DNA of 64,000 nt from Anaerolineae bacterium. Its GTDB lineage: Bacteria; Chloroflexota; Anaerolineae; Anaerolineales; Villigracilaceae. The position numbers were made by a program, and so were the translations under genes. Positions within the stretch are counted from its first letter, which is position 1. Each line of letters begins with the position of its first letter. This document shows positions 43,435 to 46,198 of this stretch, in pieces. A model generated the notes under the pieces. That model had not been told where the DNA came from, did no database searches, and saw only the letters and a program-made list of their open reading frames with translations. The stretch is taken from the NCBI GenBank assembly GCA_022013685.1, contig JAKLPV010000085.1, forward strand, positions 1-64,000, read 5' to 3'.

Positions 43435-43830
43435 TTACTCGTCCACTCGTTCGCTTGTGGTTTTTTCATCGTTCTTCTTCGCCCCGCGCTCATGGGTCAG
43501 CACATAGATCAGGATCAGCGCCAGGCCGAAGAACATCGGGATCATGCCGACGATCATCCAGGGGCCGAAGCCGAGTGGGAAGCCGGTGTTGCCGATGAAA
43601 CCGAGCGGCCACATGCCGATCGTCAGGGCCAGGCCGACAGCCGTGATCAGAATGCCCCAGATCAGCGAGCCTTTCCCGTTGCCATTCCCGTTGGACTGCT
43701 GCGGCTTGACCAGTCCCTTTTCAGCCAGGGCCAGGGTTTCCTTGTAGCTCAGAAAGCGCATGAAGGCAAAGAAGCCAAAGACGATCAGAAAGAAGGTGAT
43801 GCCGCCTGCGCAAATGATGAAGATTTCCAT
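43435..43830 (-). CDS. DUF6249-like membrane protein
   Basis: A 131-residue protein with three hydrophobic segments: about 4-24 (IICAGGITFFLIVFGFFAFM), 58-78 (IWGILITAVGLALTIGMWP) and 90-110 (MIVGMIPMFFGLALILIYVL). A Q/S/N/G-rich linker around 45-55 separates the first helix from the others, and the tail is charged. The layout is that of DUF6249-type proteins, often found with ECF sigma and DUF4097 genes. It follows the DUF4097 gene by 12 bases on the minus strand. Role unknown. Confidence 0.7.
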   Translation of the reverse strand: MEIFIICAGGITFFLIVFGFFAFMRFLSYKETLALAEKGLVKPQQSNGNGNGKGSLIWGILITAVGLALTIGMWPLGFIGNTGFPLGFGPWMIVGMIPMFFGLALILIYVLTHERGAKKNDEKTTSERVDE

Positions 43831-43842
43831 TAGATTCTCCTT

Positions 43843-45150
43843 TTATTTCAAAATGTTGAGTTCGATATTGCCGTTATTGGTGCTGACGGTCAGCTCCGCG
43901 CCGCCGCCATTGATTTTGCCTTGCCAGTGACTTTCCTCGATCTGACCCTTAACCGTCATCTCGAATTCTGATGTGATGGTACCGAATTCGGTTTGCAGAT
44001 CGAAATCCAGGGTTGATTCTTCTGGCAGCGTCAGGTTGATGCTGCCGTATTCGCTGTCGAAAACATGCGGGCCATCGCCCAGCGAACCCTCGAAGGTGAT
44101 GCCGCCGTTCACGGCGTTCATGGTGGCGGTCACGCCTTCTGCGTTCAATACCTCGATTTCGCCGAACTGCGAATTGATCGCCACTGCGCCGCGGGCACCA
44201 TCCACGAATATTTTGCCGTTCTGCGATTCGAGGGTATAGGCTTCAGCCTCTACATTGTTCAGAGAAATATCGCCGAATTGGCTGGTGACTTTGACTTCGC
44301 CGCGCACGCGCAGCCCCTCGATGGTGATCGATCCATTGTTCGAGTCAACCGTCATCGGGCCGGTTTGCCCGCCGGTCAGTTTGATCGTGCCAAATTGGCT
44401 TTCGAGGGCCAGACCTTTAGAAGCCTGGATGTCCTGGAGCGTCATTTGTCCGCTTTGGGCGGAGATCGAAACCTGGCCGCCTTTCAACCCGCGCACATTG
44501 ATCTCGCCAAACTCAGAGTGCAGGCTGGCGGCCTCCGCCCCGGCATCAAGATTTTCGGCATCGATGCCCCCACTGCTGCTCTCCGCATTCAGCGGGCCGG
44601 TCACATTTTTGACCGTAACCGATCCAAAGCTGGATGTCAGTTTGGTTTCGCCGGTTGTTCCTTGCAGGCCGACATCACCGCTGATGGCGGTTAGATCTAC
44701 GCTGGTCTCGAGCGGCACTTCGATTGTGAAGTTGACACTGCCGCTGCCCGGCCCAATGCTGAAGGCCTGCATCTCAGCCGGTTGGAACATGGATACAGTG
44801 ATCTTGTCGCCGTTCTGCTCGATGGTCACCTTCATCTCGGCCAGGGCTGCTTCCGCGTCTTCCTGGCTTCCGCCCCAGGCGGTTTTATCTGCCGTGATGC
44901 GCACCGCGCTGCCTTCGACCGCTTTGACCGTTACAAAGCCAAAATCATTCGTCACCGTTAACGAAGCCGGCCCCTCGACCTGAAGCGTTTTCTCTTCAGT
45001 CGCCTCTGCCGAGACGGTGCGGTTCTCGAACAGGCGCATCCGCACGCCGCTCTCCTCGATCATCTGCCACCCCTGCATCAGCGCGAAAACGCTTGCGACG
45101 CAGATGCAAATCAGGGCTAAAATCAAAATACCTGCAACAATGTTTTTCAT
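43843..45150 (-). CDS. DUF4097 beta-strand-repeat envelope protein
   Basis: A 435-residue exported protein with an N-terminal membrane helix (IVAGILILALICICVASVFALMQGW). The rest is a long run of short beta repeats with recurring forms such as SQFGEI, SEFGEINV, SSFGSVTVKN and SNNGSITIEG, typical of the DUF4097/DUF4098 putative adhesin beta-helix. It probably lies outside the cytoplasmic membrane. Start ATG 45150 follows GGAGG. The gene faces away from the ECF sigma gene; a candidate ECF promoter on the minus strand (TGAAAC-16-TGTCAA) lies 34 bases upstream, so it is a likely target of that sigma factor. Confidence 0.87.
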   Translation of the reverse strand: MKNIVAGILILALICICVASVFALMQGWQMIEESGVRMRLFENRTVSAEATEEKTLQVEGPASLTVTNDFGFVTVKAVEGSAVRITADKTAWGGSQEDAEAALAEMKVTIEQNGDKITVSMFQPAEMQAFSIGPGSGSVNFTIEVPLETSVDLTAISGDVGLQGTTGETKLTSSFGSVTVKNVTGPLNAESSSGGIDAENLDAGAEAASLHSEFGEINVRGLKGGQVSISAQSGQMTLQDIQASKGLALESQFGTIKLTGGQTGPMTVDSNNGSITIEGLRVRGEVKVTSQFGDISLNNVEAEAYTLESQNGKIFVDGARGAVAINSQFGEIEVLNAEGVTATMNAVNGGITFEGSLGDGPHVFDSEYGSINLTLPEESTLDFDLQTEFGTITSEFEMTVKGQIEESHWQGKINGGGAELTVSTNNGNIELNILK

Positions 45151-45183
45151 TTCTGTTCCTCCAAAAATAGGGTTCTATAAGGT

Positions 45184-45242
45184 TTGACAGGCCTGCCGCG
45201 AAAAAGTTTCAAATGAAACTTTTTCCCTTTTCGACCTGTCTA
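45184..45242. promoter_or_regulatory. Symmetrical divergent ECF-sigma promoter pair
   Basis: The palindrome GAAAAAGTTTC-AAAT-GAAACTTTTTC (45200-45225) places a TGAAAC -35 box on each strand. On the plus strand TGAAAC (45214-45219) is followed after 17 bases by TGTCTA (45237-45242), toward the sigma gene. On the minus strand TGAAAC (45206-45211) is followed after 16 bases by TGTCAA (45184-45189), toward DUF4097. This resembles ECF promoters of the TGAAAC/CGTC class. Confidence 0.7.
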
Positions 45243-45263
45243 AAGATTGAAGGATGAATTTCT

Positions 45264-45830
45264 GTGGAATTAAGAGAGCGCGAATGGCTAAAACGGGCCA
45301 AAAAAGGAGATGCAGACGCATTCGGCATGCTGGTCACCCTGCATGAACGATTCGTCTATAATCTCGCCTTTCGCACCCTCGGCAACACGGAAGACGCCCA
45401 GGATGTTGTTCAGGATGGTTTCGTGCGCGCCTGGGTGGCCCTGCCGGGTTTTCGCGAAGATTCTGAATTTCGCACCTGGCTCTACCGGATTGTGCTGAAC
45501 CTGTGCTTGAACCGTTTCCCTCGTTTGCGGCGTGACCTGGCCGCTCTGTCGGATGAAGAGCTGGCGGACTCCCCCGAGCCTGCCGCCCACGCCACAGATG
45601 TTTTATCCATGCTCGAAGCGGACGAGGCCCGCAGGTCCTTGCAGCGTGAGATCTCCCGTTTACCCGAGAGTCAACGCCTGTTGGTCACCCTGCGCTATCA
45701 GGACGAACTCTCTTACGAAGAGATCGCCAGCCTGGTTAACCTGCCGCTCGGGACGGTCAAGACCGGCCTGTTCCGCGCCAGGGAACGCCTGCGCCAGGCT
45801 TTATCGGTTTATCAGGAGCAACAAATATGA
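45264..45830 (+). CDS. ECF-type RNA polymerase sigma factor
   Basis: A 188-residue extracytoplasmic-function sigma factor. Region 2 reads HERFVYNLAFRTLGNTEDAQDVVQDGFVRAWVALPGFREDSEFRTWLYRIVLNLCLNR. Region 4 reads RLPESQRLLVTLRYQDELSYEEIASLVNLPLGTVKTGLFRARERLR. The start is GTG 45264, preceded by AAGGATG; no in-frame ATG is better. The downstream gene overlaps its stop (ATGA) and encodes a two-helix protein, the usual place for an anti-sigma factor. A candidate self-promoter lies just upstream. Confidence 0.94.
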   Translation: MELREREWLKRAKKGDADAFGMLVTLHERFVYNLAFRTLGNTEDAQDVVQDGFVRAWVALPGFREDSEFRTWLYRIVLNLCLNRFPRLRRDLAALSDEELADSPEPAAHATDVLSMLEADEARRSLQREISRLPESQRLLVTLRYQDELSYEEIASLVNLPLGTVKTGLFRARERLRQALSVYQEQQI

Positions 45831-46198
45831 AAATTGACGAACTCGAACCCATCGAAGATGCCTTGCGCGACCAGCCGCTGGCTGAACTGCCTGCCGGGCT
45901 GCACCGGCGCGTCATGTCGCAGGTTCGCCTAACCCGCCAGCCGCTGCGCTTTCAAATCAGTTGGATCGACCTGGCGGTCAGCCTTTTCTTTGGCCTGATC
46001 CCCGTGCTAGTGGCCTTTGGCTGGAAATCCCTGCCGCGCGAGGCGGGCCTGTACCTGAATTACTACTGGATGGTATTCCAATCGATGAACCTCGAACCGC
46101 TTTTGTGGGTGGGAATCCTGACCGGGCTGCTAAGCCTGGCCCTGATGTTTGCCGCTGTCCTGCGCCTGCTGCTCCAGCCGCCCATGCGGACGCAGTGA
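45827..46198 (+). CDS. Putative anti-sigma factor (two-helix membrane protein)
   Basis: A 123-residue protein: a cytoplasmic N-terminal part of about 45 residues (IEDALRDQPLAELPAGLHRRVMSQVRL) followed by two helices, about residues 48-66 (DLAVSLFFGLIPVLVAFGW) and 87-112 (EPLLWVGILTGLLSLALMFAAVL). The ATG overlaps the sigma stop (ATGA), strong evidence of coupled synthesis. No zinc-binding HxxxCxxC motif is present, so it is not a classical ZAS anti-sigma. The role is inferred from position and topology. Confidence 0.7.
   Translation: MKIDELEPIEDALRDQPLAELPAGLHRRVMSQVRLTRQPLRFQISWIDLAVSLFFGLIPVLVAFGWKSLPREAGLYLNYYWMVFQSMNLEPLLWVGILTGLLSLALMFAAVLRLLLQPPMRTQ

Follow-up and report, generated by a model that had tools for sequence, protein, structure and literature searches.

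Predicted back-to-back ECF promoters serving a SigW-like sigma factor operon and a Toastrack operon across the order Anaerolineales

The Bacillus subtilis sigma factor SigW recognizes the consensus TGAAACN16,17CGTA (PMC2375139), and its core regulon includes the sigW-rsiW operon itself and yvlABCD, with the DUF4097/Toastrack gene yvlB (PMC3498285). A second kind of local regulon is that of the ECF41 factors, in which a conserved bipartite promoter with a spacer of 16 +/- 1 nt precedes the sigma gene and/or its target; 55 of 373 ECF41 loci (15%) are divergent, many of them with the motif on both sides (PMC3426412). ECF groups differ in the -10 box, CGTC in ECF41 being one example (PMC3426412), and a -10 box with CGT no longer defines ECF factors (PMC8103513). 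Among ECF factors with predicted regulons, about 55% have been reported to be autoregulated (PMC8103513). Divergent transcripts from pseudo-symmetrical DNA are also known from the sigma-70 bidirectional promoters of E. coli, where the -10 element is shared and the starts lie most often 18 bp apart (PMC12825309). For phage-shock-type Toastrack modules, one report predicts a coupling of DUF4097 genes to transcriptional control, operon-linked sigma factors included, and describes a Toastrack protein whose operon also encodes a pspC homologue (PMC11237479).

The locus described here lies in the window, the whole 64,000-nucleotide stretch of DNA from an Anaerolineae bacterium that was analysed. A perfect 12-2-12 palindrome at positions 45200 to 45225 separates a DUF4097 gene on the minus strand, which starts at 45150, from an ECF sigma factor gene on the plus strand with a GTG start at 45264 (Table 1). 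The original prediction had drawn an 11-4-11 palindrome; the inverted repeat is real, but each arm had been given one base too few. TGAAAC is present on both strands as had been stated, and the proposed TGTC(A/T)A at a distance of 16-17 bases was likewise found, as TGTCAA after 16 nt on the minus strand and TGTCTA after 17 nt on the plus strand. Each arm equals one extended -35 element TGAAACTTTTTC, and the clade of the window has a palindrome because its two -35 elements lie 2 nt apart; the palindrome is the appearance of two back-to-back TGAAACTTTTTC elements and no separate element. The two -10 boxes are separate, with 47 nt between them, and transcription would start at about 45177 (minus strand) and 45249 (plus strand), some 72 bp apart. 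Allowing up to three mismatches, the palindrome occurs once in the window versus 0.00 expected, and the pattern TGAAAC-N15-18-TGTCWA has exactly two matches in the window versus 0.02 expected. What exceeds chance is the pairing of the sites, the extended -35 box TGAAACTTTT and their conservation. A sigma-70 scan gave no housekeeping promoter here, and a sigma-70 promoter at the palindrome was rejected.

Table 1. Genes and promoter elements of the module, in window coordinates.
Feature	Position	Strand	Remarks
DUF6249 protein, 131 aa, gene 2 of the divergent operon	43435..43830	-	Pfam PF19762, E 2e-11
DUF4097 (Toastrack) membrane-anchored protein, 435 aa, divergent target	43843..45150	-	Pfam PF13349
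-10 box TGTCAA, DUF4097 promoter	45184..45189	-	16-nt spacer
-35 box TGAAAC, DUF4097 promoter	45206..45211	-	extended TGAAACTTTTTC 45211-45200; kept at 54/54 loci
Palindrome arms and centre	GAAAAAGTTTCA 45200-45211, AA, TGAAACTTTTTC 45214-45225		read from the sequence
-35 box TGAAAC, sigma-operon promoter	45214..45219	+	extended TGAAACTTTTTC 45214-45225
-10 box TGTCTA, sigma-operon promoter	45237..45242	+	17-nt spacer; most relatives have 16
ECF sigma factor gene, 188 aa	45264..45830	+	GTG start after AAGGA
Probable anti-sigma factor, 123 aa	45827..46198	+	short N-terminal part, two predicted membrane helices

The sigma protein has the layout of an ECF (group IV) factor, with only the sigma2 and sigma4 domains (Pfam Sigma70_r2, E 4e-20, residues 23-90; Sigma70_r4_2, E 2e-15, residues 124-176) and a short linker, and its C-terminal end lies about 12 residues past sigma4. 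The nearest solved structure by sequence is SigW (5wuq, E 2e-34). Scores against the NCBIfam SigW equivalogs remain below the cut-offs (144.4 bits versus 209, and 129.4 versus 243.1), and by sequence the protein is SigW-like, not SigW. The window's genome encodes several ECF paralogues (six matches at E <= 1e-20). One genome has an additional, incomplete sigma gene copy (G118:C24:8644-9042). The gene for the 123-residue partner overlaps the sigma gene by 4 nt, and its product yielded no family match at the thresholds used and no anti-sigma domain in Pfam or NCBIfam; this membrane partner is probably the anti-sigma factor. On the divergent side, the DUF4097 protein matches PF13349 with an E value of 3e-30 and 106 bits, above the gathering score of 22.9. 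The Toastrack protein that has been described together with a pspC homologue is one that we take to be YvlB (accession CAB15517.1).

Comparison with the known systems places the locus closest to SigW/RsiW. Both have the -35 element TGAAAC and a spacing of 16-17 nt, SigW is the nearest solved sigma factor, and a self-activated sigma/anti-sigma operon, predicted here, is accompanied by a target operon with a DUF4097/Toastrack gene, yvlB of the core target operon yvlABCD in the case of SigW. The two differ in the -10 box, which is CGTA for SigW and [TG]GTC[TA]AA here, in the Toastrack operon, which here is divergent from the sigma gene, in the presence of only two strong promoters, and in the partner protein, which has no recognised anti-sigma domain. 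ECF41 and its COE target gene also form a local self-activating module with a divergent arrangement. However, ECF41 factors have a C-terminal regulatory extension, no anti-sigma gene, the -35 element TGTCACA and other targets, whereas the -35 element here is TGAAAC and the sigma protein has no such extension. In contrast to the E. coli bidirectional promoters, the two promoters here share no element, and there are two -35 and two -10 boxes. The promoter pair, the DUF6249 gene and this gene order do not appear in the available part of the report on phage-shock-type Toastrack modules (PMC11237479). The kind of system is already known, but in the literature searched neither this member and its promoter code nor any published ECF promoter work in this order was found.

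For the analysis of conservation, sigma orthologues were gathered from the family and the order, and their upstream regions were read after orienting each locus. The set comprises 54 orthologous sigma loci from 11 families of the order, with sigma identities down to 41%. All 54 loci carry two promoters of the type TGAAAC...[TG]GTCTAA, one facing the sigma gene and one facing the opposite way, and the -35 box is always TGAAAC or a close variant retaining AAC. The spacer measures 16 nt at 42 sigma-side and 49 DUF-side sites and 17 nt at the remaining 12 and 5, respectively. The -10 consensus is [TG]GTC[TA]AA, with GTC in place of the CGT expected of an ECF (group IV) -10 box. When the two best sites per locus were given a penalty score, in which 0 denotes a perfect site, 60 of the 108 sites scored 0 and the maximum was 6; in 1080 shuffled scans no score fell below 4 and the mode was about 10, and sigma coding regions gave 6 to 14. 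A blind motif search in 152 genomes of the family returned mostly these promoter pairs, above the reversed control.

The gene neighbourhood is conserved along with the promoters. A tblastn search placed a divergent DUF4097 gene at 53 of the 54 loci, the remaining one matching DUF6249 only, and DUF6249 is usually next after DUF4097 where the available sequence extends far enough. Most loci also encode a protein with two membrane helices next after the sigma factor, as a rule from a gene that overlaps the end of the sigma gene; the count is approximate, as the automatic choice of frame gave a helix-free frame at three loci. The proposal of two outward-facing ECF promoters, one toward the sigma operon and one toward DUF4097-DUF6249, is supported by a pair that recurs at every locus and whose copies in the window are the sole strong profile matches in the genome.

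The two -35 boxes, on the other hand, are spaced very differently from genome to genome: four genomes have 1-2 nt between them, the 50 others 10-118 nt. A tree of the sigma proteins groups the four compact genomes in a single clade (support 100/99), made up of the window's genus and one neighbouring genus, with wide gaps in the surrounding lineages, and compaction looks lineage-specific in this tree, whose root was placed for drawing only. Elsewhere the gap is filled with unrelated DNA, several hairpin repeats included, while both promoters are intact. In many members of the family strong hairpins occupy the gap; those at L014-L037 and L152 are of several unrelated sequences, and their fold z-scores reach -11.6. 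One hairpin type from the gap, 'GGACGATGGACCATAGACC', has 41 matches in genome G137. The same gap position seems to have received repeats many times. The symmetry is incidental and no general design, and the two predicted promoters are separate units. The idea that one symmetrical sequence sets a positive loop for the sigma factor and its targets thus survives in part: the promoter pair is kept at 54 of 54 loci, but the symmetry belongs to one clade only, with gaps of 1-118 nt overall.

Further target genes were sought by pattern and by profile. In the window's genome, TGAAAC-N15-18-TGTCWA had 7 matches versus 7 in the reversed control, and the extended pattern with three mismatches had 38 versus 36, which in neither case is an excess. 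A sequence-only profile, which outperformed the extended pattern, was built from 44 sites, the window's two among them. In the window's genome only these two sites were strong, on the DUF4097 side at 45181-45211 (25.1 bits, E 1.2e-4) and on the sigma side at 45214-45243 (21.4 bits, E 0.0019), the next match having an E value of 1.27; the scores of the window's own sites are partly due to the construction of the profile, and the absence of other sites is the informative part. Genomes of the family contain extra single sites by both pattern and profile, most of them pointing at a gene, and the genes behind them include a second DUF4097 gene, PHP-domain genes, HlyD-like lipoproteins and an ABC transporter. 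The second DUF4097 gene, unlinked to the sigma gene, has its own single promoter copy pointing at it in G096 and G099 (L115:629-1918 and L116:2102-3391). The motif also lies immediately before two similar HlyD-like lipoprotein genes of G101 and G130 (L206 and L123:2102-3157), although neither genome yielded a sigma orthologue. In G028 and G089, TGAAGATTTTT-N-CCTGTCTAA stands just upstream of a different ECF paralogue (L124, L125) and is perhaps a sister promoter code.

The PHP-domain phosphoesterase gene of genus g26 has one copy of the same promoter, directed at the gene, upstream of 21 of the 57 genes read, with the -10 box usually 22-34 nt upstream of the start. Such sites were recorded at L121:2066-2776, L207, L208, L209, L211, L214, L215 and L217. 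The upstream scores are bimodal, with values of at most 4 in 21 genes and at least 8 in 36 (six more genes were unreadable). Strong sites precede 15 of 24 genes in genomes with a sigma orthologue versus 6 of 33 in genomes without (Fisher 9e-4, uncorrected for relatedness and with some genomes incomplete). This association is modest evidence in trans linking the motif to this sigma factor. Six PHP genes carry the motif although their genomes, some of them incomplete, yielded no sigma orthologue, a hint that it may also be used by another ECF factor. A PHP gene as target in the window's genome was rejected, since the nearest homologue (48% identity) has no motif upstream.

The preferred explanation is that there are two promoters, both probably read by the sigma factor encoded at 45264, to which a probability of about 0.88 is assigned. 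The same two promoters might be read mainly by another ECF sigma factor of the genome, which contains several paralogues to choose from (the six matches noted above), and similar sites before PHP genes do occur in genomes without the orthologue. Yet the promoter pair always flanks this sigma gene, the PHP sites are commoner where its orthologue is present, and self-activation is common among ECF factors (PMC8103513), which makes this reading improbable. It is also unlikely that the locus is one symmetrical promoter working in both directions, with the shared palindrome as functional unit and polymerases competing so that the operons are balanced. Steric exclusion is plausible in the window, with -35 boxes 2 nt apart and predicted starts some 72 bp apart; the compact state has been kept in two genera forming one clade (support 100/99), and competition has been measured at E. 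coli bidirectional promoters (PMC12825309). In E. coli, however, it was seen only with strong transcription in one direction (PMC12825309), and in 50 of the 54 orthologues the boxes lie 10-118 nt apart, often with unrelated repeats between them, while the promoters are intact. Because the spacing varies from 1 to 118 nt, polymerase competition cannot be the conserved function. The built-in competition that had been proposed is accordingly not a general feature, the compact palindrome being confined to one clade, and within that clade competition may occur, though a functionally important one is unlikely.

The perfect 12-2-12 symmetry between divergent genes could also suggest a palindromic operator, at which a dimeric transcription factor controls both operons. 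Such an operator fails because a fixed spacing of half-sites would be needed: the half-sites are 1-118 nt apart, whereas each keeps a constant 16-17 nt to its GTC[TA]AA box, and lone half-sites with a -10 box are also found ahead of unlinked genes. This explanation is very improbable. The same holds for an RNA hairpin or bidirectional terminator insulating both operons. In the folding analysis a strand of the palindrome does form a hairpin of 11 pairs (-11.5 kcal/mol, z -4.6), with U-rich sequence behind it, but a terminator scan gave no terminator at the palindrome, which lies upstream of both genes, and wide-gap relatives have the promoters without this hairpin.

Two promoters and a positive feedback by the sigma factor are thus strongly supported by the comparative data, and the promoter that precedes the sigma gene at each of the 54 loci predicts self-activation. 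Dependence on this particular sigma factor is suggested by proximity and conservation. The sequence is read as two back-to-back copies of one ECF-type promoter, TGAAACTTTTTC-N-[TG]GTC[AT]AA. An envelope signal would free the sigma factor from the membrane partner (45827-46198), and the holoenzyme would fire both promoters, so that sigma factor, partner and the DUF4097-DUF6249 operon would rise together; being encoded in the sigma operon itself, the partner would close the loop. The circuit would act as a self-amplifying switch for a module with a presumed role in envelope stress, and it would be local because the window's genome has no strong sites apart from these two promoters. A more far-reaching picture, which is speculative and unlikely, is that of an undescribed ECF group of the order, whose conserved core, the divergent promoter pair, would drive sigma/anti-sigma and Toastrack-DUF6249, in which the Toastrack protein would feed back on the membrane partner, and the tip-to-tip palindrome of one clade would make the outputs mutually exclusive at each initiation.

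The natural variants with spacings of 1-118 nt provide a ready-made series for testing interference between back-to-back promoters. If the preferred reading of two promoters served by the adjacent sigma factor is true, the order would possess a testable promoter code for a SigW-like sigma factor, and the widespread but poorly understood Toastrack/DUF4097 proteins would be tied to a self-activating switch of the envelope type.
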